Made by a program: the position numbers and the translations under genes. Below the pieces are notes generated by a model. It ran no database searches and was not told where the DNA came from. It worked only from the letters and a program-made list of their open reading frames with translations. A stretch of DNA of 64,000 nt from Agarophyton chilense (lineage: Eukaryota; Rhodophyta; Florideophyceae; Gracilariales; Gracilariaceae): positions 186,001 to 250,000 of the forward strand of contig JARGXX010000103.1 of assembly GCA_030374765.1 (NCBI GenBank), read 5' to 3'. This document shows, piece after piece, positions 1,873 to 54,940 of the stretch (positions within the stretch are counted from its first letter, which is position 1; every line of letters starts with the position of its first letter).

Positions 1873-2786
1873 TGTGGAGCAAAACCCGGCGACGGGAAGT
1901 GCTCTCAAGGTGTTCGAAGCCTTGCTCCCTGGGGGAGGCAGACTCAGAGACAGAGCCCTCCGTTCCACCCGTAGTGTGGGGTGTAACTCCCACGGGGGAT
2001 TCCGGCAGTACCGACGGAGGTGAGGGGTAGAAACCGTTGGATCGGGAATGGGTATGGGTATCCCAAAGAATGGGGGAAAATCCGGCGAAGAGGAAAAACG
2101 GGGCGAGGGTCGGGCACTAACAGGCACCGGACCCGAGAACCAGAAAAGGGGCGAAACAACAAAAGAAACCCAATACAGGGGCGAAAACCTGTCCTCGAAA
2201 GGAAACACAAAAAGCACGCAACAAGTAAGCAGAACCCCCACGGGGTATCGTGCACGCAGGTCGTCTGAGCGGTCCCAAGGGGGTGGTTGCACGGAACCCA
2301 AACGTGGGCACTCTCCAAGTGGAGTCGTGTCCCTACGCAGGCGTTGCTAACCAGAGCCCGTTCCGGGTTGTAAGGCCGAAACGATGGCGACGAAGAACCT
2401 CTAAAGGTATCGAAGACCAACCTTGGTTCCCATTTACTTTGAGCTTCGGACTGTCAGATCTCATCTCCCTAAGTAGGGCCCACTAACTAAACTCTACAGT
2501 AGTGCACACCTGCTCAGGGCCATACACGGGGAGATCCAACTGTCAGGGCCCAAAAGTCCAACGTTCTACAAATATCCGAAATTCGGTGCCAAAATTAAGC
2601 CACGTGTATCACGGGGCCAATCCAACCATGGGCCATCCGAATTTTCCCTTATAGGCGAATTCTAACCAGAAAACAGTGCCACCTCAGCACACCTTAGAGG
2701 GGATCATAATCATAACCCTCGGAGGGTTCAATCCTCATTCTATGAGTTGCATCTTCAAGTATCCCCTGACTGGGCGTTGCTCTACA
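1873..2786 (-). repeat. 3' LTR of element B
   Basis: This 914-bp copy begins TGTGGAGC and ends GCTCTACA on the plus strand and is about 98.5% identical to 11986-12898. It is GC-rich and carries many short open frames on both strands that I regard as chance. The motif AATACAGGGGCGAAA near 2175 resembles sequences in the solo LTR at 18426 and in the right LTR of element G, suggesting a shared LTR core. Confidence 0.92.
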
Positions 2787-2803
2787 TCTCCCCCTCCTTA
2801 AGA
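2787..2803 (-). promoter_or_regulatory. Polypurine tract of element B
   Basis: The plus strand reads TCTCCCCCTCCTTAAG directly inside the LTR end, which is CTTAAGGAGGGGGAGA on the element strand. This is the expected purine tract next to the 3' LTR, and it confirms that the element runs on the minus strand. Confidence 0.8.
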
Positions 2804-2844
2804 CGAGGAAGAACATTCCGAGCCGCGGGTGTCCTGCGTTTCAG

Positions 2845-2858
2845 TTGCTATATATACT
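2845..2858 (+). promoter_or_regulatory. Candidate TATA box for the antisense accessory ORF
   Basis: TTGCTATATATACTG lies between the 3' LTR and the accessory ATG, about 235 bases upstream of it, in a 300-bp leader not used by gag-pol. The position would suit an internal promoter for the plus-strand gene. This is inference from the motif alone. Confidence 0.35.
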
Positions 2859-3089
2859 GCTCTCCCAATGGGGTCCTTCACCACTTCTGCGGATCGCCAC
2901 AAAACCGGCACATCGGTACAACTTTCTCCTACTCCTCCGACTTCCGGCGATAAGCAACTTCTCGCAACAGCAGTCTCAACCAACCCTCTCAAGGGAATGA
3001 ACCCATACGTCCTCAAACCACTCTAGGGGCCATCGGCTTCCGCGCCGGCGGACAATGAAGCTCCCCAGCAGGGTGGATATATCTCCGGT

Positions 3090-4724
3090 TTGGATGCAGC
3101 TCCGTCAGGTACCCAACCTTCCGCCTCGACGGGCAACCGACATCCTCAGGAGGATTCGGACATTAACGCGGTGGCGTGGAACTCCGCTCATGCGATGCCC
3201 TTGGTAGCAAACTCCAGAGGTTGGATCTCAAACGAATCCTTTCGAAGGTGGAGTCCCCTTAGCGATCCGGTGATATATTCCCGCGCTCCGTGGTTCCATC
3301 CGACAGCGGTTGGCGACGATGAGCTCATCGACTCCTACGTGGAGAACGGCTTATTGCTGGGTGGCCTACCTGTTGAGGTTGTACGTTCTCCCGATTGGAG
3401 GGCACTGGTAGCCATAGAGCCTCAGTATCTATACCGCAGTCGCGGGGAGTCCGTGGACAAGGCGCGCGCAGCGATTGCGGCTCTGGCCTACCAGCGATTG
3501 GAGAGGTCACGCTTTGACCATCTGGTTCCCCTGGAGTACGGGTTCGATGTCGCCTATTACCGTACGTACGGTGAGGTCTCCTACGGGGATAACCTGGCAG
3601 CCTTTCCCGAATCCGAGTTCCGCGGACCGGGTTTTCCTCTCCGAGAAGATATGCTCCAATGGAGTCGTCCCATCCTTCGGGCTGAATTCAGGTACCTTCA
3701 ACGGCAGTTTACCCAGTATGGGTTCGATCGACGCGTGCGCTTCGAGCGCCGCTCGCGCTCCCGTTTCGGGTTCCTTGTCCCGTATCCTCACGTGGAACTG
3801 GAGCGTATCCGTAACACGGCGAAGGTTGGGCGATTCGTGCCCCTTCCAGCTTGGTGGAGTAAGGTCGAGGTCCCCCGAGGGTGCTTTGCTGAACTGCCCC
3901 CATGTATCTACTATATCGGGTCTCGTTTGATGCACGACCCGAACTCGGGATACTGGGCCCTCGTTGCAGCCGAGTGGGCAGCCCGCGTAGCGGCGCACCT
4001 CCTCTGGGATGCTCATGACCATTTCCGTATCTGGTATATTCCTCCGATGCTACGGACCATCATGCGTCAGATCGACCTTGTCCCAGCGTTGGGTTCGGCC
4101 AGCAACGTGCAGGACCTGTATCCAATCTTGGACGTGATCGACAACACCCAATGGGATCGACTTCCAGTGGCAAATCAGCCCGCAGGGGAAGGATCCGCGC
4201 GAGACAAGTCTCCTGGCCGGTACGATCCGGGCTCCGGTAACTGGGTCTATTACAATCCCCTCGAAGGGGTTCGCATCAGCGCAGCGCAAGCACGGGCGCT
4301 GATTGACTCGCCTCGACCGATGCCGGTGGGACACCCGACGGGGTTCATTTATACCGACGATTACGAGTACGAGCCTCCAGTAGACCTGAACGATCCAGCG
4401 TTGGATAACGACATGCCAGCTCCTAGTGGAGTACTCCCTGTGGGGCCATCTGCACCCTTCCAACCAGTGGGAACGACCTCAGCTGCGGCGGCGAATGCAT
4501 CTGGTGGCAGTCCATCTGCTCCCCCCGGGTGGGGTGTGAACACCCTTGCGCAGGCGCCGGTTGCCACTCCGCAAGCAGATAGTGTGCGACAAGGCCTCGT
4601 GCACGCGGGCATTCCGATTCCCCCGGGTATGACGGATGTGAGCCAGATGTTGGCTTTCGCCTCGGCGTACCATCAGGATCAGAATCCCAACGGTGGGGCG
4701 GGTCCCTCCTCGGGCTTTCCGTAG
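3090..4724 (+). CDS. Antisense accessory protein of element B, unknown function
   Basis: An uninterrupted frame of 544 codons starts at ATG 3090 and runs opposite to gag-pol. I do not recognise a family. Residues 1-60 are low-complexity. A conserved body of about 60-360 carries RAEFRYL, RSRFGFLVPY, VPRGCFAELPPCIYYIGS, HDPNSGYW, a hydrophobic AARVAAHLLWDAHDHF helix and LYPILDVID. A Pro/Ser/Ala-rich segment follows, with a final helix near residue 500. The body aligns with the E copy at 45368-46756 and the decayed G copy at 32700-34373. I see no signal peptide, zinc motif or clear membrane segment. Unlike gag and pol of the same copy it has no stop. It could be a nucleic-acid-binding or assembly factor; that is speculation. 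Confidence 0.85.
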   Translation: MDAAPSGTQPSASTGNRHPQEDSDINAVAWNSAHAMPLVANSRGWISNESFRRWSPLSDPVIYSRAPWFHPTAVGDDELIDSYVENGLLLGGLPVEVVRSPDWRALVAIEPQYLYRSRGESVDKARAAIAALAYQRLERSRFDHLVPLEYGFDVAYYRTYGEVSYGDNLAAFPESEFRGPGFPLREDMLQWSRPILRAEFRYLQRQFTQYGFDRRVRFERRSRSRFGFLVPYPHVELERIRNTAKVGRFVPLPAWWSKVEVPRGCFAELPPCIYYIGSRLMHDPNSGYWALVAAEWAARVAAHLLWDAHDHFRIWYIPPMLRTIMRQIDLVPALGSASNVQDLYPILDVIDNTQWDRLPVANQPAGEGSARDKSPGRYDPGSGNWVYYNPLEGVRISAAQARALIDSPRPMPVGHPTGFIYTDDYEYEPPVDLNDPALDNDMPAPSGVLPVGPSAPFQPVGTTSAAAANASGGSPSAPPGWGVNTLAQAPVATPQADSVRQGLVHAGIPIPPGMTDVSQMLAFASAYHQDQNPNGGAGPSSGFP

Positions 4725-4779
4725 TTCCGCCTTCGGGCAATTGTGGAGTCCATAGCTTGGCGACAATAGTAAACTTCTG

Positions 4780-4945
4780 ATATTTGCATAACTTCTTTTC
4801 TTCTTTCTTCCTAGGATCTTAACTTCTACTTCTTTTCTTCTTCCTTCTTAGGATCTTCTTCATCTTCGTCTTCATCTTCTTCCCTTCCTAGGGTCCAATC
4901 TTCTTCTTGATCTTCTTCTCCACTTCGTGGGTCTTGTTTTCCTTT
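4780..4945. repeat. Polypyrimidine spacer between accessory ORF and pol (B)
   Basis: The plus strand is almost pure C/T, made of TTCTTC-type repeats. It contains three pyrimidine runs that end in TTCCTAG, CTTCTTAG and CTTCCTAG before GAT or GGT. On the element strand it is a long GAA-rich purine run beyond the end of pol. Equivalent tracts occur at the same place in E and G. Possible roles are 3' splice acceptors for the accessory transcript, a bidirectional terminator, or a second purine primer site. Confidence 0.6.
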
Positions 4946-5124
4946 TTTCATCATAAACTGTCCCGATAACCGGTGCTGTGTTCTCCGGTTAACGGCGCTA
5001 GGCCGAGGGCCAGTAGACATTCCCTCTCAATACGTGTTCTTCGGGATACTCTCCTCAATTCCTCTTCAGAGGTCCAACATCTTCCTCACTTCGAGGTCGC
5101 ATCCACACCAGTTCCCGTGGTGGC

Positions 5125-5330
5125 TTACCCGACTTGGGCACGATCCAGATTTGGAGGCAAGGTTACCGGAGCGCGTCGGAGATAGGATAAAACCTTAGAC
5201 CTCGGAAGGTTCCCAATGGGTTCCACTGTATCCTCATCAGGCGATAATCCGTACCATCGGACTTGGCACAGCTCGTTCCCGAGAAAGCGGGGTTTGAGTG
5301 TGCGACACCTCAGTGTCTCGTCCGCGGCGG
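5125..5330 (-). pseudogene. Chromodomain-like pol terminus of element B, shifted frame
   Basis: The minus strand encodes ELCQVRWYGLSPDEDTVEPI followed by NLPRSKVLSYLRR. This matches the carboxy-terminal chromodomain of element E (LLYRVSLYGFPPEADTWEPI, then HIPRSQLVRYHRR). It lies in a different frame from the upstream pol, which ends at 5237, so a small indel near 5270 separates them. Chromodomains in this position are known to guide integration of chromoviruses. Confidence 0.7.
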
Positions 5331-8300
5331 CGGGTGATCGTCGGCTCTGTAGGCGTTCCCGGTGTGGAGTTCTCCACACGACTCTCCCTAGGCAGGTTTT
5401 CGTCATCTTTTCTGACGTCGTGCTCGGCTGGGTCGGCGGTGATGTCGCTACCCATACGCTGGGGTTGTGACTTCTCTGTCGCCGGCTCGGTCGGGCTCGC
5501 CGTCTCACTGCGAGAACTAGATTCCCCGTTAGGGCGACTGGCTGACGCCGAAATATCGTCCTGCGAAGGAACTAAGTCCTCCTCGCCCTTCTTAGGCGAA
5601 GAGCCAGGAGGCTTGATTACCTCCGGTGGGGGAGTAACTCTGTAAGAGTTCGTTGACTGGGCCCTTGAGGGAGCGGGCCCAGGTTCGAGAGTATCCGAAG
5701 TTTCCGGTAGGTCGGTTAAACCACGTTCCGGGTGCGGAAGTATAACGGGGCGGGTGTTCGAATCTCCGCCTGGCGGGTTAACTTCCGTTGAATCATCCCC
5801 TGTGGAGGGCGTTGGTGCCGACACCACTTCCACATTTGGGTTGGGCGCTCGTGTGATGGGGTCCCTGGAGATCCGTTCGTGGCGGTTAGCGATATCCAAT
5901 ACCACCGTGTCCGGGTCTACAGAAACCACCCGATAGGGTCCGTCCACAATTGGCGAAAGCTTGTGCCTACGTTCCTTTTCAGGATTGTAGTATTCCTTTC
6001 GAAGGAAGACGAAGTCGTCGGGCTCCACCTGAGGTAGAGGTTTGCGAACCCGATTGTCAAAGTCCTCCTTGTAGGCGCGTTGAGCTTTGTCCATTGCTTT
6101 CCGGGCTATCGGCACCATCTTCGTAAGCCACTCCTTCCAGGCTTCTCGGTACAATCCCGGTGACGGGTACGTCGACAGCGTCGGTTGAGCCTCGATGGCG
6201 ACCGGCGGCGGTGTCCTCGACAGTACCAGTTCGAATGGGGATAACTATGTAACCCGATGTACCTGGGTGTTGTATGCATATGTGATAGCGTCTGTGTACA
6301 AGTCCCATTTTTTGGGGTGATCCGCAACATACGATCTCAAAGCGTTGAGTATCGTGCGGTTAAACCTCTCCACCTGGCCATTCCCCTGAGGGTGATACGT
6401 AGTAACAAATAAATTCTTTACATCAAGGATTCGACATACATCCTGAAAGAACTTTGATGCGAATTGCCCTCCGTTGTCGGATAACAACTGCACCGGCGGT
6501 CCATATACGAACACCCAATGGGTCACGAACGCTTGCGCGACGGTAGCGGCGGTGATCCGCTTCAGCGGCACAGTTCTCGTTAGCTTAGAGAATCTGTCAG
6601 AAATGACAAGCAGATACCGATGACCTCGGGGCGTCCTGATAAACTCCCCTAGGATGTCTATGGCCACGAATTCGAGTGGAGCCCGTGCCGGGAACAGCGT
6701 CAACTTCTTAGAGTGCTTCCGAAGTTTGACGTCGTTCTTGGCGCAATTGGCGCAGGCCCGTCTGACGGCGTAACAATCGAATGCCATTGCCGGCCAGTAA
6801 AAGTCCCTTCTCAACGTGAGGTACAGTTTTCTTCCCCCGGGGTGGGCGCCAACCTTCACATAGTGAGTGAGGTGTAATACCCTCTGTTGTAGGTTGTGCG
6901 GCACCACTATCCTCGGGCGAGGTCCAACGGTCCTGATTAGGTAACCCTGATCGTCGTCCTCGAAAGGTAACTGAAATCCTCTGTTGAGGCGAGCCCGAAT
7001 CCGTGTACAGAATGGGTCGAGCTGTTGCTCGCGTATCGTATCCTCTGGAGAGATAGGTATAAAAGAGCCGGTCGGCGAATCCAGACTCTCGTTGACGAGT
7101 ATATCGTCACAAACATCATCCGTCAGCGGTTGAGCTCCTCCCTCGAGGTCCGATACCATAAAGCATGGGATGTCATCGTCCTCGTAGGGTTCCGTTTCCG
7201 CTGTGGTTCCCAAGCGGGATAGTGCATCAGCCTGAGTGTTCAGCTTCTTTTTCTTGTACAGGATCTCAAAGTCGAATTCCGACAGCCGGAGACGCCAGCT
7301 CATAAGGCGGCCCGAGGGTTCGGAGATCCCCAGGAGCCAACGCAAGCATGCGTGGTCCGTATGGACTTTGAAACGAGTGCCAATCAGATAAGGGCGGAGT
7401 GTAGCTAAGGCCCACACAACGTCTAAACATTCTTTCTCGGAGACCGAGTAGTTCCTTTCATGGACATTCAGGGAACGTGACCAGTACCCAATAGGGTGAC
7501 GTTCACCATCCTCAGAGGATTGGAACAGTGCACACCCTACTTGGTTTGCACTAGCATCGGTGTCCACTTCGTAAGGGAGCCCAGGATTGGGTAGAGCCAA
7601 GATTGGCGGTGATGTTACGGCATTCACCAGTGCCGTGAAGGCAGACGCTTCCGCGTCGCCAAAAGATTCCAGTTCAACTGGTTGTCCCTTCGTCAGGAGC
7701 CTGTTGAGGGGGGTGGCAATATCCGCAAAGTTCGGGACGAATCGTCGATACACGTTACACAGACCTAAGAAGGATCGCAACTCCGTTTGAGTTTTCGGGT
7801 GTTTTGCTTCCTTCAAGGATTTCACTCGTACTTCCTCTATTGAAAGCTGTCCGGGACGGATGATATGACCCAGATACTTAACCGAATCGGTGAAAAACTC
7901 GCACTTCTTGAGTTTCAAGGTGATTCCCGCGTCGCGGAGTATCTTCATTACGTCTTTGACTTGTTCGAGGTGGTCATCCAGGTTGTTGGAGAAGACAATA
8001 ATGTCGTCTAAATACACTAGACACGTCCTCCACTTGAAGGGAGCCAACAGAATGTCTATCGCCCGTTGAAACGTTGCGGGGGCATTTGTCAACCCAAAAG
8101 GCATCCTCCGGAATCGGAAAAGTCCTTGATTACACACGAAAGCCGTTTTGTCTCGATCTTCCTCCCTAATAGGGACTTGCCAGTAACCCGAATTGGCGTC
8201 AAGGGTAGAGAAAACAGTAGCGCTCCCAAGGGAGTCGATGTATTCGTCCATTCGAGGGATCGGGTACACATCCTTAATGGTTACCTCGTTCAGGCGTCTG

Positions 8301-8851
8301 TAATCGATGCAGAAACGCCACGATCCATCCGGTTTCGGAACTAACACCACTGGTGAGGCCCAAGCGGACTGGGCAGGTTCAATTACGCCCGCTTTAAGCA
8401 TCTTCTCCACCTGAGATTTCTCCTCTTCCCGAGCTTTCGGTCCAGCCCTGTAAGGGTGTTGGGCAATAGGCCGAGTGTTCGGTAACAAGTCGATGCGGTG
8501 TTCTGTAATCCCAATAGTTCCAAGGGAACCATCCCACATGGGGGTAAATTCACAAAGCATGTGCCTCAGCTTCTCCCGATGAGATGCGGGTACATTGTTG
8601 AGATCCCATTTCTCCAATTCCTGAACAGGATCCGTCTGGTCTGCTCCAGTGATAGGGGCCGTAACCTTCTGAGGTTTAAAGTGTTCAACGTGTGGAGCTG
8701 CAGTCGTATGCTCACCGTCTTCTGCGATTTCGGCAGTGTCCTCCCCCTCCTTAGGGTCCGCCACACCAAGGACCTCTGCGATAGAGATCTTTGTAGGTAC
8801 GACCGCATGCGGGTGTGGAAGAACAGAACCCAGGATCTGGTGTTTGACCAA
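5237..8851 (-). pseudogene. pol of element B: RT, RNase H, integrase, linker
   Basis: One frame runs from 8851 to 5237 with a single TAG at 6245-6247. RT shows SAWASPVVLVPKPDGSWRF (about 162-180), TLDANSGYW and the catalytic YLDD (280-283). RNase H has VDTDAS near 430, SEKEC near 472 and HTDH near 498. Integrase has an HHCC region with ACANCAK, and DDE residues in AIDILGEF, SDNGGQF and GQVERFN. After the TAG the frame continues with LSPFELVLSR and VDGPYRVVSVDPDTVVLDI. About 200 residues rich in P, S, T, E and D follow before the chromodomain. The 5' junction with the protease needs a frame change near 8840. Confidence 0.92.
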
Positions 8852-9725
8852 ATGCTGCGTTGTCTTTCCAAAGAATGGCTACCAAAACCTTGAAAGGTTT
8901 ATCCGGTTCCACGGAGACAACCCCATTCGCAAGGGCGAGTTGACGCCGCGTATACAGAGACGGGTTCGGTTGTACCACATGCACACCAATTTGTTTGGTA
9001 ACAACTATGACCCAAACCTGGGTTTCTGGCGGGATAGCCACTGACTTTGCAACCTTTACCCGTGTAGACACCGGGTCCTTCTTCACAGATTCCTGGGCGA
9101 CAGGGAGAGGAACGCGTGGTCGCGCTGCTCCCTGTAAGGGTTTACGAACAATTGGGATCGTAGACCCGTCTTCGAGTTCCACAGTTCTATTCCGAGGACG
9201 GATGGCTTCCACGAAGCGGTCGCAAAAGTCACAACCCAGTATGACTGGTGCTGCAAGTGACTTGCATACAATAAACTCTAGTTGAACGAGATAGGAGCCT
9301 AACCTCACCATGAGGGAAATTGTACCCAGTGTCCGTAGCGGGTTGTTGTTCGCATCGGCGATATCCAAACGTGGACCGGTACTAACTCGGACCCGGAGTA
9401 GCGGGGGTAACAATTCAACATGAATTAAGTTAGGAGCGGCTCCTGTATGCAGGACAGATATTTGACGAACCATAAACTGGTTGGACAGGCCGAAGTCGGC
9501 GAATACTTTATAATTTCGCTTGGCCATTACCATAACTCGATCCGGAATACGGAGATTACGGGACCGTATCCACGGGCAACGGAGGACACTAAAGTATCCC
9601 GAGTTAACGTCGGTGTCAGCCGTTCTCCTTGAAAGGATAGTCACAGCTGGGGAGCGAAGCTGGAGCGCCTCGGGCGTCTTCAACTCCGGCTTAGAAGACG
9701 CCCCTCCCGCAGGGGAGACTCCCAA
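8840..9725 (-). pseudogene. Aspartic protease region of element B
   Basis: This frame begins directly after the gag stop, without an ATG and in a different phase, so expression would need frameshifting or reinitiation. After a leader it encodes MAKRNYKVFADFGLSNQFMV, then VLHTGAAPN at the active site, and VILGCDFCDRFVEAIRP in the flap/ILG region. Element E has ILDTGAGPN at the same place, so the catalytic Asp is His in B. The frame runs into the RT frame after an indel near 8840. The function would be gag-pol polyprotein cleavage; this copy should be inactive. Confidence 0.85.
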
Positions 9726-9727
9726 GT

Positions 9728-11758
9728 TTAGTTTTTCGAAGCGGACCCCACCGAATTCGGTGCAGCTGCCTCGAAGGGGACCGGTTGTTCCCCGTTCGCG
9801 GGTACAAGTTCTGTATCCCTGTCAGCAAGGTGAGCTCGGAGTATCCTTTGTTCCTCATAGGACCTACTCGGGACTCGAGCTTTCTCCTCAGGGGTCAGAG
9901 CCTCGTACTGAGTGATAATTCGTGAACACTCCCGCAGGGGAAATGTGCAGTCTGGTGCTTTGTGACCACGGAGGTAACACAAATAGCAAATCAGCTCTGC
10001 CGGGTTCGGTTGTGGACGTGAATCCACGCGACGTGGTGCTGTATCCCTCCATCCGGGGCGAGAGAACTGAGCAGCGGTATTCGCAAAAGGTAGCGATGCG
10101 GCTGGCACCCTCCGTCCGTGGGTATAGAGCGCAGGGTCTTCATCCGTAGTCGGAGCGGATGTCGACGGCAACTCAGACGTACCCATAGATTCGGGGTTAC
10201 TTCCCATGAAGTGAATGTTATCATTGACCCCCACAGGGGCAGGGCCTCCTGCGAGTGACAAAGACGAGTTACCTCCATCGGCGAGGAGTGCACGTGTCGG
10301 CCGACTCTTTCGGTTCTGCCGGGCACGGAGAGTATCCCCCTCAGCCTGGGCGTACTGAACCAGTTCCAAGTAGGTCAGCTTGCGCTTCTCTTCCCGATGT
10401 CGGGCAACCAATGCCCTTATCAAGGGGTCTAAACCATCCACAAACATGGAGCATCTCTCGTAGGCGGGGAATACATTCCCGCATCGGTGAAACGCTTTAT
10501 TCAAGCGAGTTGAATACACCGTTTCGGTTTCCATCGGCTTCTGCCGCGTATCCCTTAATGCAAGGATTGCTTCCTGAATCGGATTTCCAGTAGCGTATGA
10601 CCTCAAGAGGTACTGCACCGCTTCGGGCCAGCACGTGACTCCCCCTTCCGAGGCTCGGGATGATCCACGGATGGAGTTGAACTGGTCTTCAGCCATCCCC
10701 TTTAAGAAATAGGGTAATGCCAGATACGCTTGCGCTTCACTCATACCGAGGATGTCAGCCTCCTGGACGAACCTCGCAAGGAAATCGAGCACCAGAATTG
10801 GGTCTGTTCCTGTGAACTCCCTCTTCTGTAGAGTGATGATCAGCCTTTTGATGTAGTCCTTGACCTTACCCGTTCCGCGGGATGTCCGATCTCCCGAAGG
10901 GTTATCCAACCGGTAATAGCGGTACGATAGCAGCTTCCGATAGAGAGGATTCGTCGGCTTCAGCTCCCTTAATCCAAGGTGTTTCCTACCCTTCTTCCGG
11001 GTACGGATTGCCCCTTGAGAGGTGTAAGTAGCCTTCGACCGAGTTGCCCGGGATGACCGGCGTTCATCTTCACTATCCGAAGATTCGGAGGACGAACTCG
11101 ATGGCGAGCGATTGGGATCGGAATCCGATAAATCCTCTTGGAGGTGAACCCTCTTCTTGGACTTGCGGCGGTCCCGTTTAGCGGAGCGGTGTTCTTCGTC
11201 TTCCGAAACGTCGGGTTTATCCTTCGAGGCTTCTGCGTCTCCGTCCATACGGATAATGGCCTCGAGGGTGTCCAGCCGAGCTCGAAAGCGTTCCGCTTGC
11301 ACGCGGTGTTCCTCCACGAGGCTCCGGTACTCCTGGATAAAGACCCCAGGGGTACCAAAGCTTTCCAAAAGGCAGTTCACATCCCTCCTCAGGGTACGAA
11401 GGTCATCGGCGACTCCCCGCACCGGGGCGTTCTCCACCTTCAGGCGGAGGGTAGTAACCTCCTGAAGGAGCTCGACGTGAGCCGCGTTGGCTATATCGAT
11501 TCGAGTCTCCAGGCGCTGTTATTCAGGGTCGGCCCGACTTCGGGGTGCTGCTGAGGGGGTCTCCACCACTGGAGCTGGGCCCACAGCCACGACCTCTCCA
11601 GGACCTGAAACCACTGAGAGTGCTCTCCGAGTGTCCGGATCGATACCGGAATCGTTCCGACCTTCGGGAATTGAGCTCCTCGACCTAGGCGGGGCCGGGG
11701 GCACTGAATCCGCTTGACGGTTCGATCCAGTCCTGGAACCACGGGTAGGCGGCGACAT
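9728..11758 (-). pseudogene. gag of element B with one premature stop
   Basis: The frame spans 677 codons from 11758 to the TAA at 9728 and has one in-frame TAA at 11519-11521. The start at 11758 (MSPPTRGSR) is chosen because the text after the TAA stays in phase. An N-terminal coiled-coil-like part (LRRDVNCLLESF) is followed by an acidic/serine tract (SDSDPNRSPSSSSSESSDSE) and a capsid-like region with NPLYRKLLSYRYYRL and ALPYFLKGMAEDQF. A CCHC zinc knuckle, CYLCYLRGHKAPDC, lies near the end. The capsid core aligns with E gag and more distantly with F gag. Confidence 0.9.
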
Positions 11759-11965
11759 GCTGCAGACACGACACCGACGATTCGGGGTAACGATGAAATT
11801 CGATCACGAGATTCCCGGAGAACGGATGACGTAACACAAAACAAAAATAAAAACCAATTTCACCCTTTCCAAAGGGGACCACTACAACAAATCTTCACGA
11901 CGGTGCTTCCTCTTCCAAGAGATATTCCAACACGTGGATGACCAACCCAAAAGTCCGAGAACGGA

Positions 11966-11983
11966 TTCTAAGTCGGGAGACCA
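11966..11983 (-). promoter_or_regulatory. Primer-binding site of element B
   Basis: On the element strand TGGTCTCCCGACTTAGAA begins two bases after the 5' LTR. The identical site is present in E (54250-54267) and a mutated one in G (about 42998-43015), which ties the three elements into one lineage. I cannot identify the primer tRNA. Confidence 0.75.
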
Positions 11984-11985
11984 CT

Positions 11986-12898
11986 TGTGGAGCAAAACCC
12001 GGCGACGGGAAGTGCTCTCAAGGTGTTCGAAGCCTTGCTCCCTGGGGGAGGCAGACTCAGAGACAGAGCCCTCCGTTCCACCCGTAGTGTGGGGTGTAAC
12101 TCCCACGGGGGATTCCGGCAGTACCGACGGAGGTGAGGGGTAGAAACCGTTGGATCGGGAATGGGTATGGGTATCCCAAAGAATGGGGGAAAATCCGGCG
12201 AAGAGGAAAAACGGGGCGAGGGTCGGGCACTAACAGGCACCAGACCCGAGAACCAGAAAAGGGGCGAAACAACAAAAGAAACCCAATACAGGGGGAAAAT
12301 TTGTCCTCGAAAGGAAACACAAAAAGCACCCAACAAGTAAGCAGAACCCCCACGGGGTATCGTGCACGCAGGTCGTCTGAGCGGTCCCAAGGGGGTGGTT
12401 GCACGGAACCCAAACGTGGGCACTCTCCAAATGGAGTCATGTCCCTACGCAGGCGTTGCTAACCAGAGCCCGTTCCGGGTTGTAAGGCCGAAACGATGGC
12501 GACGAAGAACCTCTAAAGGTATCGAAGACCAACCTTGGTTCCCATTTACTTTGAGCTTCGGACTGTCAGATCTCATCTCCCTATGTAGGGCCCACTAACT
12601 AAACTCTACAGTAGTGCACACCTGCTCAGGGCCATACACGGGGAGATCCAACTGTCAGGGCCCAAAAGTCCAACGTTCTAAAAATATCCGATATTCGGTG
12701 CCAAAATTAAGCCACGTGTATCACGGGGCCAATCCAACCATGGGCCATCCGAATTTTCCCTTATAGGCGAATTCTAACCAGAAAACAGTGCCACCTCAGC
12801 ACACCTTAGAGGGGATCATAATCATAACCCTCAGAGGGCTCAATCCTCATTCTATGAGTTGCATCCTCAAGTATCCCCTAACTGGGCGTTGCTCTACA
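11986..12898 (-). repeat. 5' LTR of element B
   Basis: This 913-bp copy matches 1873-2786. The differences are about 13 substitutions and one 1-bp gap by eye, several of them C-to-T or G-to-A changes. It ends TCTACA next to the CTCAG duplication. Confidence 0.92.
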
Positions 12899-13680: not shown

Positions 13681-15130
13681 TAAAGAAGTCAAGAAGGGAG
13701 AATGCGAACTGTTCGCAGTCCGAGTATCTAGGAATAAAGAGTCCGCAGTATCTGAAGCAAAGTGCTCGCCTGAATTTGGAGAGGTGTTATCAGAGTTTGA
13801 AGATTTTTTAAAGGAAGAGTTACCCGATGAGTTACCCCCGCCACGCCGGATGAAATTCGAAATCAAAATCATACCAGGCACCCAACCTCCTGTTCGGTCT
13901 GTAATCAGACTTTCACCTCGTGAGTTGCAGGAACTCAAGCGCCAAATGTAGAATTACTTGAAAAAGGGCTTCTCAGACTTTCGTCTTCACCGTATGGAGC
14001 TCCAGTCTTCTTCATTAAGAAGAAAAATGGAGATCTTCGAATGGTTTGTGACTACAGAGCATTGAATAAGATTACGATTCCAGATGCAAGTCCTATTCCG
14101 TTGATCAATGAGAGTATTGATCAAGTAGCAGGAGCCCAACTCTTCTCACAGATTGACCTAATTTGAGGTTACCACCAAATGAGGCTCAAAGAAGAAGACT
14201 GTCACAAAACTGCAATACGCACTTGATATGGATCTTTCGAGTGGAGAGTCTTGTGTTTTGTATTGACTAACGCACCGGCAGCGTTTTCGCCTCTCTTAGC
14301 ACATTTGCTTCGTGAGCTTCATGGAGAATGCATGGTTCTTTACTTAGATGATATCCTCATCTACAGTAGCAACGAAGAAGAACACAGACGGGAATTACGA
14401 AAGCTCTTCGAGATCTTAAGAGAACATAAGCTGTACATCAGACCTAGGAAGAGCAGCTTTGGGGTTACAGAGGTGGACTACCTTGGCTTTAAGATAAATG
14501 CAGAAGGCGTTCCTACGCAGCAAAGGTTGGTAGAATGTGTAGAGAAGTGGCCATCGCCAACATCACTGAAGGAGGTGCAAAGGTTTTCAGGACTGGCAAA
14601 CTTCTATCAAAGGTTCATAAGAGGTCTTGCACAAGTAGCACGTCCAGTAACTGATCTTCTTCGTTCCAAGAACTTTCAATGGGAAGAAGAACAGAAGATC
14701 GCATTTGAAGAGTTGAAACGCCGGCTGACAACTGCACCAGTTCTACGGCATCCATCATCGGATGTATTGTTTGTATTGACCACTGACGCTTCCAAGTACA
14801 CGATTGGCGCAAGCTTGAAACAATAGGGTCACCCTGTTTCGTTTCTGTCTCATCCGCTTTCGGAGACAGAGACTAAATGGGACACTGGGGACCAAGAACT
14901 GTTGGCAGTCATGATTTCGTTGTGCGAATGGGCAGTTTACTTGAAAGATCGACCATTTATAATTCGAACGGATCATGAGCCAATCAAGTATTTAGAAACA
15001 AAATCAAAATTGCCAGGGAGGCCGATGAGGTGGCTCAATGAGTTGCAGTGTTATATGTTCCAAATAGAACATATCAAGGGCTCAAAGAATGGAGCTGCTG
15101 ATGCCTTAAGCAGATTATATGACTGCCACC
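13680..15130 (+). pseudogene. RT and RNase H of element A
   Basis: After an RT lead-in (KIIPGTQPPVRS) the plus strand encodes SSPYGAPVFFIKKKNGDLRM, CDYRALNKITIPDASPIPL, FSQIDL, LTNAPAAFSPLLA and YLDDILIYSS with an intact YxDD. RFSGLANFYQRFI and FVLTTDASKYTIGASL lead into RNase H, with FIIRTDHEPIKYL and GAADALSRL at its end. Stops occur at 13950, 14164, 14227 and 14824, each replacing a codon inside a conserved motif, so they look like point mutations. Domain order and spacing are normal for Ty3/gypsy. Confidence 0.9.
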
Positions 15131-15279
15131 CAAAGTTGAAAGCACTTCGCCTCAACGACCAGGACTTGCATACTGCAATTAGGAAGGCATACGACGGTGA
15201 TGGCTGGACAAAGGACATTCTGTCAGTTTTACGTGATGGAAAGGATCTTTCGAACAAGAAGACGGCAATATATATCTTT

Positions 15280-16132
15280 AACTATACCTATCAGGACGGA
15301 TTGATCTACTGGAATGCCAGGGGCAGGTCAGGACGTGTGCTAGTTCCACAAGGCAGAAACCTTCGGGAGGCACTTAGAAAGAAGTTCCATCTACCTGGAC
15401 ATTTCGGGTGGGAAAAGACATGTTTGCATTTGCTCAAAACATTTTTACTGGAAGCGCATGTTCGGAGACATTCAGGAGTTTGTCTGACTTTGTGAAGAGT
15501 GCCAGTTCAGCAAAGAGTCAATGACACTACAGAATGGAAAACTCCAGCCACATCATGTTCCAGAAGCATGTTGGGATATCATCTCAATGGATTTTCTTTC
15601 AGAATTTTTGATGTCTGGCACAGGGAAAGACTCAGTGCTGGTTGTAGTCGAGAAACTTTCAAAGAGGGCAATATTTATACCTACGAAGAAGACTTTAAAT
15701 TCAATGGAGGTTGTACATTTTTTGTTTGATCACCTTTTTTCTAAACATTGAGTTCCAAAGACCATCATCTTGGATAGGGACAAACTCTTTAAGTCACACT
15801 ACTTCAAAGACATCACGAAGATGTTGAGAGTTGATCTCAATATGGCTACAAAGAGGCATCCCTAAACAGATGGTCAGTCCGAAAACATGATCAGGACTCT
15901 CTCGGAAATGACTCGAGGTACTGTACAGAAGAATCCCGAACAGTGGGACTCTATGTGGACTGAACTGGAATTGTTTTACAACTCAGCACCAAACAAGAGT
16001 ACAGGTGTAACGCCGTTCGAAGTAGACATAGGACGGGTACCAGAGTCAGAGCTCTCAAGAAAGTTTTCGAGAACAGATACTATCTGTCCAGCGGCCGTTA
16101 AATATTTGGAAAGAAGACAAGCGTTTTGTACG
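15280..16132 (+). pseudogene. Integrase of element A, first part
   Basis: A zinc-binding region (LREALRKKFHLPGHFGWEKT) is followed, after a frame change near 15500, by the catalytic core. The DDE residues lie in DIISMDFLSEF, TIILDRDKLF and TDGQSENMIRTLSEM. The core continues through MWTELELFYNSAPNKSTGVT to RRQAFCT. The 634-bp solo LTR starts there at 16133, and the same frame resumes at 16772. Confidence 0.85.
16128..16132. repeat. Target-site duplication of the 634-bp solo LTR (left)
   Basis: GTACG precedes the TGTCGTA start. The same GTACG at 16767-16771 follows the TACGACA end. Confidence 0.88.
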
Positions 16133-25456: not shown

Positions 25457-26174
25457 TCTATACGACCGCTGGCCTCATATGAGGCCAAACTGTAATTTTC
25501 TGTGTTGATTTTTAGTAATTTTGACTGGTTTTTTTTCGTGTTTTGACCTCGAAGCAGTAAAGTCTTTATATCACCTTTTTATAAAAATCTCCGCCTCATG
25601 GAATTTCTTTTACGCGTAAGAATAAATGTAAAGGAACCAAGTAATATAGAATTTATATTTAAATGACGAGCAGGCTAATTACTATGTTAGCATATAAAAC
25701 AGGCTTTTTTGGAAGCAAAAACAGTGATTGCACTCTAAAAAATCGTTCTGGAGCTGTGTATGAAACAGAACTATCCATCAAAAAACAATCAATTTCGAAC
25801 AATTACCCCGGTCGTATAGAAACTAGCCTCATAAGAGGTTAAACTGCACACTTTTTTGCTGATTTTTAATTATTTTGACCGGATGTTTTTCGTGGTTTGA
25901 CCTCAAAGCAGTGAAGACCTCATATCACCTTCTCAAAAAAAGTCTTCGCTTCATGATATGTTTTCTACGTGAAAGAAGATAAGTAAATGAACAAAGTAAT
26001 ATAAAAATATATATTTAACTGATCAGCAGGCTAATTACTATAATAGTATGGAAAACCTTTTTTAGGTGCAAAAACAGCGGTTGCTCTCTATAATCGCTTT
26101 CTGGAGCTGTGTATGAAACAGAACTAACCCTCAAAAAAAAAATCTATATCGAACAGTTGTCCCGGTCGTATAGA
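25457..26174. repeat. Tandemly doubled MITE-like repeat, unit about 355 bp
   Basis: Two head-to-tail copies (about 25470-25820 and 25821-26174) share long blocks such as CAGGCTAATTACTAT, GCAAAAACAG and TGGAGCTGTGTATGAAACAGAACTA. The array starts with TCTATACGACCG, and each unit ends with the reverse complement CGGTCGTATAGA (25808-25819 and 26163-26174). The units are AT-rich, lack coding capacity, and are diverged by roughly a fifth by eye. The inverted ends suggest a small DNA-transposon-derived element that was duplicated. Confidence 0.7.
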
Positions 26175-26506
26175 AACTGGCTATCTCTAAACCCTTAGCA
26201 ATCTACGACGGGTAGTGCGTTACCTAAATACGATGTGCCTGCCTGCAGAGCGATCTTTGCACTGCGAGGGTTTGAAATCGCTAACCTTTGTGGCACTGTT
26301 GACTTCCTCCGCACCAACTGTAGGCACAACCAACAAAGCTGTTCATTTGTGTAACTTTTTTCTTTCCAAGTGCAGCCATATGTATTCGCCACGTGGCGGC
26401 GTTTTGAATTTGTAAATGTTCAAGTTCAAATTTCTGCAGTACTAACTTGAAGTGGCAATCGGTTCAGCTATAGTGTACCACCTCAGAGCAGCGCTGCAAT
26501 CGCAGC

Positions 26507-32699: not shown

Positions 32700-34373
32700 T
32701 TCCTTCTGTGCTCTCGCCCCAAAGCAGTGCAGAAACTGCGGCAGAGGCTGCACCGGTTGCGAACACGGGCGTCGCTCCTTCGATAGATTCTACGCCGTTC
32801 GTGTGGCTGTCGCATGACTGGCTCGCAGGTCTTCAACACACTTTGCAGGTCTCTATCCTGCGGCTTGTAACGGGGATCAATCCGACTGCTGCATTTAACG
32901 AAGCACTTTATGCCATGTATACCGATAGGAATGGAATGATCCTTGTAAGTAATGCATTCCTTGCAACCTCTTCGTAGGATTGGCGGAACCGTGCCGCGGT
33001 TCCAATTCATACGATACGTCGTCGCGGGAGAAACTCGACAGCTTCCGCCTATGGGGCTTTTATCTTCCTTGGTGATCAATGGCTTCGGCAAGGTTCTTCC
33101 GAATTTTCCATCCCCGATAGAATGGGCTCTAATTCCAGACTGTACCGCAGCCAAGGGGAACTTGGATATCTCAACCGCCTTGCGGGTTTGAAATCCTTCT
33201 TGCAGAGCGGTTATCCCCTTGTGCGCCATAAAGCCATCTACTGGGTCCAGGCGATCATTCGGGCTGAATTCCGCTTCATGCTACGACTCGTACGAGCAAA
33301 AGTTTTTGAGATGATCCGCTTTGATCAGCAAGCTCGATCCCGGTTGGATAATATGTTGCCGTACTAAAACTTAGAGATCTAAAGCAGTCGCGCAGCCCAC
33401 CGAAACGGTCGTTCTGTTCCCAATCCATCTTGGTGGCCGTGTATCAAATCTTATATAGGCTGTTATATCTAGCTACATACGTTCATCACGTATTACTGGA
33501 ACTACTTTCTCAAGGATTTTTATTCCGGACTTCGGTCCTTTGTAGCCTTCGGTTGAGCTATCCTCACTGCGGTCTTCATCCTCTGGGAGGTTTACAACCA
33601 GTACTGTCTGTGGTTCATTCCACCACAAACTCGCGCCGGAATTCGTACCGTGGACTTGCGCATCCAATTAGGTAGTAAAATAAACGCCCAATAGGTGGAA
33701 ACACTTTTACATTTTGTCGACCAGGTCCAGTGGGCCTCAGTCTTTCTTACACAGAGTGAACCTGCAATCGGTGGCCGGGCATAGAACCTTTCAGTAGGAC
33801 TTCGAACTCTGCTCGCGGGTGACTTCATCTTTTTCAACCGCTGGGAGGGATATATAGCCTCTTTGGAGGAGGCTAACTATTGTCAGTTTGCTCTGCGGTA
33901 TAACACCGAGAGGCATCCCACTGGTTTCGGGGACGTGGAATTCTATTATAACGTCTACGACGGTGAGAACCTGATGTTCGATAGTGAAACAAACGATGGG
34001 ATGGCGTCCGCTGAGGCAGTTGAATCCCAGGTTATGGATGTCACACAACACAAGGAACTCTGTAAGGCCATATCTAAACCTAGGTAGCCTTGTGGTGGCA
34101 GTTCTTGCCATTGCAAATGGTGGTGAACCTCCGGCTCCGCCAGTGGGCGTTCCGGGTATGGTTGCCTCCGTTCCAGGCTCGACAAGTGCCGCCTCGGCTG
34201 TCCACTCCAACTTAATCTCCCAGTTCTTCCAAGAGGTGGGGCTAGGAACTTGCTCTGCCATTGGTGACGTTGCCGATATGTGCGCGGCTCTGATTGCCCT
34301 CGTTCACGGCAACCACTCAGGTGGCAACCATCCTGATCTACAAGGGGGTGATGATCCCGAAATGGGCGTGTAG
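32700..34373 (+). pseudogene. Antisense accessory ORF relic of element G
   Basis: A chain of broken plus-strand frames follows the B and E accessory protein in order. It reads INPTAAFNEALYAMY, YRSQGELGYL, IIRAEFRFMLRLVR, QQARSRLDNMLPY, ILWEVYNQYCLWFIPPQTRA, VDLRIQLGS, LLHFVDQVQWASV and a terminal Pro/Ser region with SNLISQFFQEVGLG. The corresponding B segments are ILRAEFRYL, RSRSRFGFLVPY, LLWDAHDHFRIWYIPP and VIDNTQWDRLPV. Several stops and frame changes are present. It sits between the left LTR and the chromodomain end of pol, on the opposite strand to pol, exactly as in B and E. Confidence 0.75.
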
Positions 34374-39455: not shown

Positions 39456-40115
39456 CGAACACCCCATACTAGCTTTCCGAAAACAAAGACGTACATAGTT
39501 GATATAGAACCGCTACAACAAATCGTGTTACGGAGCCAGTACAACTTGGCATGGCCATGGTGACTGTGCTGGTTTTGTTTCTCTCACTCGAATTATCTGC
39601 TCTACCTGGAACGTTTCCTGTTCATGAGCCTTCGGGCCTGCCCCAAAAGGGTATCTCGCATTCAGGTGGAGTTATCGCAAGAAGTCCATCTGGTGTTCCA
39701 TAGAAATAATCTCATCAAGAGAGCCGTTCCTCGTCGTGGTAAACTTCCCTTGCACGTCGCCTAAACGGATTCCGTGTGAATCTGGTACATGATCGATGTC
39801 CAATTTCTAAAGTTCTTTCATGGGATCTGTCCTGTCTAAACTCGTCGGAACGAGCTTCTGCTCCGTTTCGACAGCCTCTCGTTCTGAGTAACTTGGCAAT
39901 GTTTTGTCCTACCTCTACTCTGCTTTTTGAAGACAGGTAACCCGGGTAACAGCCATTCTGATATCTGCCATCGCAATGTGGTGGGGCACTACAGAAACAA
40001 TGACATCGGATTTTACCAGTAAATGGATCCAGGAACGAGAATTGACCATCAGTACTTTGAGTCGGTTTCCAGGCATTGTCTGAGCAGTTCCATTCGCCAC
40101 ATCTAGTTCATTCAT
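39456..40115 (-). pseudogene. pol fragment of element G: pre-RT and start of RT
   Basis: The minus strand encodes DVANGTAQTMPGNRLKVLMV, then DPMKELEKLDI-like text (with one stop), GAGPKAHEQETFQVEQIIRV, and RFYINYVRL near 39470. The B counterparts are LALANGVVSVEPDKPFKVLV, DPVQELEKWDL, RAGPKAREEEKSQVEKML and RFCIDYRRL. The match ends there, before the RT palm. Stops and frame changes are many. Confidence 0.65.
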
Positions 40116-40381
40116 ATCCTAAAGAGATGAAAGAAGCTGAATATCTTTTAAACCGTATTGACGGTAGTTGACGCCCACCAACCATAGGTTTTCAGGCGGA
40201 GTTACTATAGATGCGGCTTATAGAAGTTCTATCAACTCTTAGAAAGCGAATGAATTTTTTTGTGTAGCAGTTAGTGGTAGTTGCTTCATTGCCATATGAC
40301 CTAGCGGGTTACCAACGAATCAGACAGGCGAAACATTTTCCATTTCGTAATTCTTTTAGCAGGCATTATCAAAACGACGTA

Positions 40382-40696
40382 TCAGTCGCATAAATCACAT
40401 ATCTGTAAGACTAGGTCAACCAGTATCTGGAAAATTCTGAAGTCAATCTTCACCAACATGGAGCCAAGACGAACGACTACATCGATATTTCCAACACTTT
40501 TATAACGAGGTAATAATTGTTTTCGCAACTTCCAGTACAATGAAAGGTGCATCTGAAGCCGCAGGGCCAGGGGTAAATGAGAGTCTACGATAAAGTTATG
40601 CCCAGCACCTGATCTCCGATTTGCGGGAATGTGCACCATGCACTGATTGGATAGGTCAAGGTCGGTATATTTTTTATCGCTTCGTTTCGCCATCAC
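40382..40696 (-). pseudogene. Aspartic protease relic of element G
   Basis: A 104-codon frame starts MAKRSDKKYTDLDLSNQCMV, close to MAKRNYKVFADFGLSNQFMV of B. It then gives VVRLGSMLVKIDFRI and LVLQICDLCD (B: MVRLGSYLVQLEFIV, VILGCDFCD). The active site reads RSGAGHN where DTGAGPN is expected, so the catalytic Asp is lost. At 40835-40870 the gag-pol junction of B is still recognisable (AGAAGGGAGACTACTTTA against GCAGGGGAGACTCCCAAGTTTA). Confidence 0.7.
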
Positions 40697-41439
40697 TGTG
40701 ACTATATGTCGGGACTATATTTTTTAAATCTGTTTCACAGGTTGACCAAAATACCGGATTGTTCGAAGTTCCCGTGTTTGACGTTCTTCTTCCTTGTAAG
40801 GATATTGACCGGTAACCGAGCCGAAAATACCTCTTACAGAAGGGAGACTACTTTATTTAGTTTCTCTACGCTTCATCCGCCTTAGACGGGCCATAAAAGT
40901 ACTGAAGTACTAGCTTTGGGGTACCAGTGAAACCGTTCCAACGAAAAGGACTGGAGTCGGTAACCTGTTGAAAATGAAGAAGAAGCAACGCGTTTCCAAG
41001 CTTCATATAAAGGGAATTCTGGGGAATGTCATTTTTCGGTCAGGGATAAGATCCCATGCAGACGATTTCTTTCTTACTAGGAGTTATTGCTGCACAATTA
41101 AGGGTCACTTGGGCGAACCCTATCGAGTTCGGGATACTGTCAGCTGAAGTATGACAGTCTTCCTATGAAATGGGGCATTGCACTCAAGAACCTGAAGGCC
41201 GCGAATCAAAACGAGCATTCTGGGAGCTGACGAGAATACGAGTGTCACTTTTCTCAATGGCGAATCTGTAGATTAGTCGAGTTATCGTACGTAATACAGG
41301 ATTCTTGACTACGGATTGGTTCTGCTTAATTCAGAGCTTGCTTCTGAGCAGTTTGATAGCAGATTTATGTCGTGAAGGATAGTCATGTTGTCGGGACAGA
41401 AAAGATATTGCTGGGAGCGAATTGCATGAAATCTATATT

Positions 41440-42300
41440 CATATAGAGCTATTGACTGGCGACCAGTGATAAAGATGGGGAGTACACGTTCTTTCTTGAC
41501 TTTTTTGCGGAACGGATCTTTGGACTTAGAATACGAGCTCGTAGGGCATTCTATTTAGTTGGAGTGGTTTGTAGAAACTTTTCGTATTTTTTATTCCTTG
41601 GCTCCTTCCAAAATCGCACCTCCAGTCTATGGATTCCGAGATCCAATTCATCAATATATGTCGTGCATCGCTCTCCAGCGAGGTAAACATTACCACAGCA
41701 ATGGAAAAAATTCTTTCGGCGTGACGATCATTTTTTTAGGGTTCCAACGAGTGTCTCGAAAAAGAAAATGAACGACTGAGTAAAGTGATTCTCGGCGTCA
41801 TACCTCAATGCGTATTTTTGCAGCTTCGTATGAGCACGTTTTTTCTCCTTCGGATGCTCAAGATGCACCACTGAAAGAAGTGGTCTTATTTTCTGCAAGG
41901 CGTTGTACAAAGTATGGAAGCGCAATCAATACTTAACATTCAAGTATAAAATATGATGTCTTTCGCTCGAAGCGTGCAAGGAAATCCAAAACGAGATTGC
42001 GATGATGTCAAGAGAAGTCTGCATACGAGATATCCCTGCATAAAATTTGTAAAGTTCTTTGTCCCTCCATGCTTCCCTTTGAAAAGTCCAAGAAAGAGTT
42101 CTCCATCTGAAGAACATTGATATTGTACGAGTATTTTTATATAAGGGGTTGATGCGCTTCAGCTCCCTCGAGACAGTGTGCTCCCTCTCATTTGTCAGAA
42201 ACGAATCACATATTCAGTGGCATACGACCGTTTGGAACAGTCTGAGCGTCTTTCTTGAAAATCTATAAGCAAGGTCTCAGATAAATTAAACCATTTGACT
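41440..42300 (-). pseudogene. gag relic of element G
   Basis: Reading down from about 41700 on the minus strand gives HCCGNVYLAGERCTTYIDEL, then DLGIHRLEVRFWKEP and NALRARI. These align with RCGNVFPAYERCSMFVDGLD, PLIRALVARHREE and GDTLRARQ of B gag. Further upstream to about 42300 only weak similarity remains. Position between the protease and the primer-binding site relic supports the call. Confidence 0.5.
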
Positions 42301-44354: not shown

Positions 44355-44533
44355 TGGTATGGGCTTTCGCAAATTGCATTTTTGATGTGTCTCATCAAGC
44401 TGCGCCCGTAGCTGTTTCTCTTCTCGAAGCTGCTCCCGCTGACAATGTTGCTGCTGAAGCCGTTGAAGTATTTAAAACCGCTTCTATGGAAGTCGTGAAT
44501 ATGGAAGCCTTGGAAGCTATTGCTGCTGCACAT
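44355..44533 (+). pseudogene. Unidentified ORF disrupted by element E, left part
   Basis: The frame encodes an Ala/Glu/Val-rich segment, VSHQAAPVAVSLLEAAPADN to MEALEAIAAAH, and runs into the left LTR of E. It resumes in phase at 54941 (IPLDAVQATSVESDAV). After the insertion the text needs two small frame changes (near 55037 and 55180) to stay open to about 55345 (ELSPYEVGTTVSVYTDLEDV). No family is recognised. Helical, Ala-rich character could suit a structural or a gag-like protein. A TGA at 44351 limits it upstream, so the N terminus may also be damaged. Confidence 0.5.
44529..44533. repeat. Target-site duplication of element E (left)
   Basis: CACAT precedes the TG of the left LTR, and CACAT at 54936-54940 follows the CA of the right LTR. 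The match is perfect. Confidence 0.92.
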
Positions 44534-45199
44534 TGTAGTATCCGCTCTAACGGAGAGAGCAGACACCTGCGACAGCGTTCGGACTGCCGATGGGTCGCTT
44601 GCGGCGAAGTAAAAGGGGTGGTAGAGCTACAACACCAGCGAGCTGGAAGTGGGGTGTAAGGCCACTACTCGCCAGCGAGGGTGAACAGTGCAACTGTAAA
44701 ACGTTGATGGAACGTAGGTACGAGATGGCTCGTGAAGTGGTTGGGGCTGACTATCTATTATGGCTCGTCCGGATCTCCGGTTAAGGAATCCTAAGCGAGG
44801 AACAGAAAAGTCATGATGCCCATGTTGTCTCCTTTACTTGGAGTCGGCGCTCACCTCTGGTACACTATATACTGTGTGCCAGGGTGAGTGCCCAAATTAA
44901 TATATAAATAATACCCAGTGGTCAGCCACTTATCCAAACTACAGTATGGGTATGGTCCCTAATGGACGTCTAGCTACAAAGGGTAGTAAAACCTGCCACG
45001 TGGATCGCCACTACAAGCGCCGTTGCAAGCCACTCCACTCGTGATGCCACGTGTTCCACTAATGTACCCTGCCTCCTGGCATTCTACGCGATGTGCCGTT
45101 TCATATTACAAGTTTGATGACATCACTCACTTATGAGTTCCAACCGCGACTTCGCGAAAAATCATTCTATCGGATTCCCCGACATAGTAGAATACTACA
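44534..45199 (-). repeat. 3' LTR of element E
   Basis: 666 bp, TGTAGTATCC to ATACTACA, about 98% identical to 54270-54935. A TATA-like ACTATATACTG lies near 44865 in a locally palindromic context and reads similarly on both strands. The adjoining TACCCCCCTCGTTAAG (45200-45215) is the purine tract on the element strand. Confidence 0.92.
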
Positions 45200-45367
45200 T
45201 ACCCCCCTCGTTAAGCGCGAACCATTGGGGACGCAAGAAGCATTTATACGCAGTCGGACCGGTGTTCCGGGTCCTCATCGTCATCACGAATTCCTTGCTG
45301 CACGACCAACTCTTACAGTTCTCAACAGCATTCTGTTCCTCACCGCTCTTCAGCTCGATCTTTCGCG

Positions 45368-54267: not shown

Positions 54268-54269
54268 CT

Positions 54270-54935: not shown

Positions 54936-54940
54936 CACAT

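Follow-up and report, generated by a model that had tools for sequence, protein, structure and literature searches.

An antisense accessory gene conserved in chromodomain Ty3/Gypsy elements of red algae, and a pol-bearing subfamily that spread after its deletion

Ty3/Gypsy retrotransposons of the red alga Agarophyton chilense carry a second gene, antisense to gag-pol and situated past pol, ahead of the 3' LTR, and sequence comparison indicates that this accessory ORF is conserved as a protein across element families and species. I describe it here from a window of 64,000 nucleotides, the whole stretch of DNA that was analysed, which holds three elements with such a gene (labeled B, E and G), and from their relatives in a genome of 79.76 Mb on 135 contigs. 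The whole-genome protein searches scored the best 80 of 1825, 130 of 1417 and 52 of 5934 candidates, respectively.

Element B (1873–12898, minus strand) is a Ty3/Gypsy element. Alignment of the LTR pair places the 3' LTR, of 914 nt, at 1873–2786 and the 5' LTR at 11986–12898 (both minus strand), and the two are 98.5% identical to each other. The gag gene (9731–11437, minus strand) has no Pfam match, and was assigned from its position and its relatives in E and G, while the reverse transcriptase, RNase H and integrase (6248–8851, minus strand) match PF00078, PF17917 and PF00665, and are followed by an integrase tail. The initial annotation had described a chromodomain at the end of pol, beside the ORF. 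This is supported by the B locus L013, where PF00385 reaches 34.7 bits, above the cut-off of 25.1, but the window copy of B retains only a remnant (5128–5571, minus strand) scoring 14 bits, and E, with 19 bits, is likewise under the cut-off. Judged by the chromodomain at its pol end, the lineage is probably a chromovirus lineage. Sense gag-pol and the antisense gene meet tail to tail across a CTT-rich gap (4725–5124), recognized from the sequence. Most other B copies have ∼0.7 kb more sequence between their 3' LTR and the tail of pol than the window copy, a difference noted at 5125–5600.

The frame first noted in B runs over 544 open codons at 3090–4724 (plus strand), antisense to gag-pol and between the pol end and the 3' LTR. 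Position 3090 is merely the first TTG past an in-frame TAG (3024–3026, plus strand), and the full accessory ORF spans 575 codons plus the stop (2997–4724, plus strand). Its ATG at 2997 is homologous to the starts of its relatives, namely that of the protein P0001 (MNP...) and those of the E family (MDP...), and the lengths are comparable: 575 codons in B, 581 in P0001, 565 in P0002 and 560 in the E copy L045. This ATG is present in 33 of 34 aligned copies. An alternative, upstream in-frame ATG (2868–2870, plus strand) is kept in 32 of the 34; however, the strip 2788–2996 diverges by 5.21% among copies chosen by their ORF, like the 3' spacer (4.47%) and unlike the core (2.34%), and 2997 is therefore favoured as the start. 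The premature TAG falls at codon 10 and occurs, among the 34 aligned copies, in the window copy only. The window copy of B is thus broken, and the earlier statement that its frame is fully open has to be withdrawn. TATA-like sites precede the ORF start in B copies; that in the window (2849–2856, plus strand), 148 nt upstream of ATG 2997, is a candidate antisense promoter.

Elsewhere in the genome many copies are in better condition. Length is free of indels in 33 of 34 aligned copies, all 575 codons are stop-free in 16 of 33 loci chosen by high ORF protein score, and 45 of 80 places (the best 80 of 1825 candidates) have no stop inside the query range. These counts come from the best protein matches (loci L001–L038 among them), which biases them towards intact ORFs; the duplicates L009, L011, L021 and L032, and the window's own L001 and L039, were excluded before counting.

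Element E has the same layout as B. Its LTRs, identified by alignment of the pair (3' LTR of 670 nt at 44533–45202, 5' LTR at 54269–54938, both minus strand), are 97.8% identical. Its accessory ORF (45368–46756, plus strand), found by homology to B, shows 40% identity to the latter over 322 residues (E=2e-65); the window copy possesses one internal stop, and is without a stretch found in other E-family copies. A TATA-like site, TTTATA (45243–45248, plus strand), precedes the ATG of E by 125 nt, and the gap that separates the E ORF from the pol end of E contains a 30-bp tandem array (46862–47011; 4.9 copies, 86%). In G, a fossil accessory ORF with many stops (32879–34231, plus strand) was identified by homology to B (29% identity, E=4e-43), on the strand opposite to its gag-pol relatives (39486–41995, minus strand).

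The initial annotation had proposed a related antisense protein in all three elements, and indeed the ORFs are on the plus strand and the gag-pol relatives of E and G on the minus strand. The placement between pol and the 3' LTR is borne out for B and E in the window, and the LTRs of these two elements gave, as had been said, no alignment with each other (at E 1e-20). The motif blocks listed as shared are present in B, and E has them in slightly altered form (RTEFHFL in place of RAEFR-L). In G they survive incompletely: RAEFR is clear, RSR is preserved in part, and those further on are eroded. Beyond B, E and G, no further relative of the ORF was found in the 64-kb window at E≤0.01. A second, diverged Gypsy pol at 13951–16003 (plus strand) shows 32% identity to B across the RT part, and no relative of the accessory ORF was found near it. 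The window also possesses a tandem direct repeat of ∼360 nt, with 79% identity, at 25469–26181.

Selection on the protein is apparent from the comparison of the two families. Between B (L013) and E (L045), both stop-free, 0.71 of the fourfold sites differ (n=69), against a random expectation of 0.73, and identical residues make up 33% of the 512 that align and 37% of the 363 in the core. In the RT-INT region of window B and E, 0.69 of the fourfold sites differ (n=150), and residue identity is 58%. The ORF frame holds no stop, while every other frame holds 5–25 in the window B, five further B copies and one E copy (8–23 in each of the six B copies, 5–25 in the E copy). Since the fourfold sites are saturated, the core retains 37% identity and there is no second open frame, selection acted on the protein, and the accessory ORF is, as far as sequence comparison goes, old and under purifying selection between the B and E families. 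A dN/dS near 1 between families, which had been named as a sign to the contrary, would hardly fit a protein that is conserved at saturated synonymous sites. The stop counts also confirm the earlier remark that the opposite strand has no long frame; that the ORF is the shadow of a constrained opposite frame was considered and rejected, as in the six B copies and the one E copy no frame but that of the ORF is free of stops.

The gene is closely linked to pol. An antisense ORF match was listed 1.5–2.4 kb downstream of pol at 25 of 52 B pol places (the best 52 of 5934 candidates). From the remaining 27 places 14 were fetched, and all 14 carry the ORF, antisense and downstream of pol. All 39 examined B pol places among these best 52 thus hold the gene, four of them in a deleted form, and absence from most relatives, the other contrary sign that had been named, was not observed. 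The 14 fetched loci are pol places without a listed ORF match, a choice biased towards broken ORFs, and comprise 2 intact copies, 8 whose ORF is interrupted by stops or frameshifts, and 4 with a deletion.

Relatives of the protein were named from two red algae, Gracilariopsis chorda (P0002) and A. chilense (P0003–P0008, with 54–90% identity to the E protein), and eleven further ones (P0001 and P0009–P0018) come from ENA or 'lgn' records. The near-duplicate rows P0004–P0006 were left out of the protein tree and of the residue conservation. In the tree, B, P0001 and the Gracilariopsis protein P0002 form one clade, and E, the Agarophyton copies and P0009 form another, both with support 100/99, while 7 of the 14 inner branches, deep ones included, are open. 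Because the B-type groups with Gracilariopsis and the E-type with Agarophyton, the split between these types probably predates that between Gracilariopsis and Agarophyton, barring a transfer of elements from one species to another.

Among copies of the recent B burst, selection is weak. In copies chosen by their ORF (L029, with a 1-nt deletion, was excluded from this set), omega is 0.55 for shared variants and 0.82 for singletons (Fisher p=0.11), and in ten copies chosen by pol it is 0.63 and 0.72, respectively. In these ten copies the ORF core diverges by 3.33%, and the flanking spacers by 4.83% and 6.75%.

The four deleted copies among the 14 fetched share one common junction, where the equivalent of window positions 3088–4037 (∼950 nt) is gone, and the protein is destroyed. 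Genome-wide, this junction was found at 46 places and the undeleted right flank at 245 (46 of 291), in a count that tolerates up to 3 mismatches and that copies more diverged there escape. The pol frames beside the four deleted copies span 1540, 1476 (with one TAA), 1540 and 1542 codons. Two of these copies, L050 and L059, are found on the same contig, C27, and are probably one duplicated insertion: their opposite orientation, and the 0% divergence of their accessory tails, suggest an inverted segmental duplication. Otherwise the deleted copies differ by 2.3–2.7%, close to the mean of 2.84% among full copies. Identical E-family scores on contigs C114 and C115, and inside C113 (among the best 130 of 1417 candidates), suggest further recent duplications.

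As a pol-bearing subfamily has amplified with the deletion, at 46 of the 291 counted places, the gene is dispensable in cis. The protein may be supplied in trans by intact sisters, or may not be required at all, and the spread of the deletion fits both. The function in the element life cycle proposed in the initial annotation is accordingly supported in part: the protein is old, conserved and selected, but the proposal has to accommodate a subfamily that multiplied without the gene.

The protein was modeled with AlphaFold2 from an alignment of 21 rows, with a pTM of 0.69 for the whole protein. The predicted order is a disordered N-terminus, a folded core, a disordered acidic linker of 71 residues with a net charge of −8, and a pair of helices at the C-terminus. 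The core, mostly helical, spans residues 46–422 of 544 (3225–4355, plus strand), and when modeled alone reaches a pTM of 0.87 and a mean pLDDT of 84.4. No PDB match was found for the core at E≤10 or for the whole protein at E≤0.001, and the protein has no match above cut-off in Pfam and NCBIfam. The profile and structure searches that had been recommended thus yielded a confident helical core, but no domain or fold match in Pfam, NCBIfam or PDB that hints at a biochemical activity; the absence of a PDB match is no proof of a new fold. The C-terminal helix pair (residues 494–530; 4569–4679, plus strand) bears a weak likeness to the helix-extension-helix fold, which is shared by the Ish1 and E3_binding families. 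E3_binding was matched in 6 of 21 rows, with a best E of 0.029, below the curated cut-off, and Ish1 in 2 of 8 pieces, which score 14.6 and 18.8 bits where the cut-off is 26.6.

Residues E219, R220, R223, R225, G227, E236, R248, E260, Y275, W289 and W355 are invariant in 17 of 17 rows (those with letters there, after removal of three near-duplicates). The arginines R220, R223, R225 and R248 are located in or beside a stretch, residues 185–250, with a net charge of +9, whereas over its full length the protein is acidic, with a net charge of −11. A helix at residues ∼288–310 is fairly hydrophobic, with a best 19-residue Kyte-Doolittle mean of 0.93 in B and 1.07 in E. The usual transmembrane cut-off of this measure is about 1.6, and 18 of 20 proteins are below it, the others being P0017 (1.60) and P0016 (1.86). 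The protein is also poor in lysine: the B ORF has 4 in 544 residues, as against 25 in 569 for gag and 45 in 868 for RT-INT. The E protein has 5 in 560, P0001–P0006, P0009, P0013 and P0015 have 4–6, and P0010, P0012 and P0016 have 15–20. The nucleotide composition predicts only 9.8 lysines in B, so that the shortage is partly compositional; lysine poverty as a possible sign of ubiquitin avoidance is, on this ground, no more than noted.

Antisense ORFs placed between pol and the 3' LTR (aORF-3R) are a known kind, reported for Retand, Grande, RIRE2, PvRetro13 and the fungal Boty (PMC7264820; PMC11963269). According to a review, the function of LTR-retrotransposon antisense ORFs is not known, while gene23 of Grande is transcribed from an antisense promoter of its own, and its product is nuclear (PMC7264820). 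The architecture of B and E is that of an aORF-3R, while the protein family and the host differ from the known cases. Grande, with gene23, and RIRE2 share the position and the strand, as does, outside plants, Boty of Botrytis cinerea, whose antisense ORF follows pol and precedes the 3' LTR (PMC7264820); however, the former are grass elements and the latter is fungal, and all were likened by description, not by sequence. Retand likewise has an antisense ORF, encoding TRP28, in Gypsy elements of flowering plants, and the 30-bp tandem array of E sits in the same gap as the arrays described for Retand. In contrast to the chromodomain elements described here, Retand is a non-chromovirus, and its TRP28 corresponds to PF04195, which matched none of the 21 family rows at E≤1. 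A genome search with PF04195 also gave no match, but is uninformative, as all 14 control genomes were likewise silent.

Two further systems, from a retrovirus and from a DNA transposon, the Arabidopsis VANDAL, are comparable in part. HBZ of HTLV-1 is a bZIP protein, and no bZIP family is found among the Pfam matches of the 21 rows at E≤1. HBZ resembles the present gene in being encoded antisense near the 3' terminus of its element; its product is nuclear (cited in PMC11963269). VANC of VANDAL is, according to PMC5735166, an anti-silencing protein encoded by the transposable element, not a transposase, that acts on other copies of the family and has its targets in tandem repeats. The comparison with VANC is again by description and not by sequence, and a search for repeated, target-like motifs found none beyond the CTT tract in the non-coding sequence of B, and the 30-bp array in E.

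The best explanation of these observations, which I hold tentatively, is that the gene encodes a trans-acting accessory protein, likeliest nuclear, acting on the nucleic acid or chromatin of the element. The lineage would then consist of chromodomain Ty3/Gypsy elements of red algae endowed with a second, antisense gene, for a protein of ∼560–580 residues whose predicted helical core, of ∼375 residues, would be without known structural relatives. Antisense transcription would be driven by a promoter that belongs to the gene itself and lies immediately inward of the 3' LTR, and the transcript would converge on gag-pol. The protein may work in trans from a nuclear site, in expression, anti-silencing or integration, and a supply in trans could also serve the deletion derivatives that have pol but not the gene. 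Hints for a role on nucleic acid are the invariant arginines in or near the +9 stretch and the sub-threshold Ish1/E3-binding likeness of the C-terminus; against this are counted the net charge of −11, the fact that all C-terminal domain scores are below the curated cut-offs, and the outcome of the motif search, in which B non-coding sequence showed nothing but the CTT tract for such a protein to bind. The weak selection on the ORF in the B burst, and the failure of any fold or domain match to assign an activity, also speak against this reading. The gene's own promoter is suggested by the TATA-like sites before the start in B copies and in E and, like the nuclear site, by analogy to gene23 of Grande.

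A protein that blocks host silencing in the cytoplasm, in small-RNA or restriction pathways, is an unlikely alternative. It could pay for the dsRNA arising from the convergent transcript, in the manner of viral silencing suppressors or, on DNA, of VANC. The convergent layout may invite dsRNA, action in trans suits the deleted subfamily, and VANC offers a precedent of anti-silencing with tandem-repeat targets, to which the 30-bp array adjoining the E ORF can be compared; B, however, has no comparable array or repeated motif. Lysine poverty (4 in 544) could be cited in favour of such a protein, but is partly compositional (9.8 predicted), and the lack of any Pfam match above cut-off or PDB match extends to silencing suppressors. 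I consider distinctly unlikely that the protein is a co-factor of replication or of the particle, joining gag or the pre-integration complex in assembly, nuclear entry or integration, and supplied in trans to deleted copies. Linkage to gag-pol has persisted through the deep divergence of B, E and G, and the lineage also has a chromodomain, both of which speak for such a co-factor, but antisense expression would uncouple its dosage from that of gag-pol, and no solved structure was matched, capsid and integrase included. Most Gypsy elements also manage without such a protein.

That the gene is a slowly dying passenger, captured long ago, needed no more and freely lost by recent copies, is very unlikely. 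The deletion at 46 of the 291 counted places, the state of the 14 fetched copies (2 intact, 8 broken, 4 deleted) and the weak selection inside the B burst are what such decay would produce; yet the protein is conserved between B and E despite saturated synonymous sites, 16 of 33 ORF-chosen loci are stop-free over 575 codons, and even in the ten pol-chosen copies divergence is lower in the core of the ORF (3.33%) than in the spacers on either side (4.83% and 6.75%). An Env-like protein carried backwards is scarcely credible. The gene does sit between pol and the 3' LTR, and one helix reaches 1.6 in two distant relatives (P0016 at 1.86 and P0017 at 1.60), but it is on the wrong strand for an Env in sense orientation, 18 of 20 proteins are below 1.6 (B 0.93, E 1.07), the hydrophobic helix holds conserved charged residues, and the N-termini are polar and disordered-looking. 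Finally, a bolder proposal, which I regard as unlikely, is that of an independently acquired class of accessory proteins with an unseen fold, which would have spread in red algae, and perhaps beyond them, and would disarm host silencing in trans. Loss of the gene would then have produced a pol-bearing subfamily living off the protein of its full-length sisters, a parasite of the parasite.

No description of this red-algal antisense gene was found in the open PMC literature, a scope outside which most subscription papers fall. Here an aORF-3R occurs in red algae, far from the hosts of the plant, fungal and retroviral examples, and its protein is without a match in Pfam, NCBIfam or PDB. Moreover, the genome holds a natural experiment, in which a pol-bearing subfamily lost the gene by one deletion and yet spread. 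Since deleted and full copies can be compared in one genome, the purpose of such an antisense gene becomes testable.
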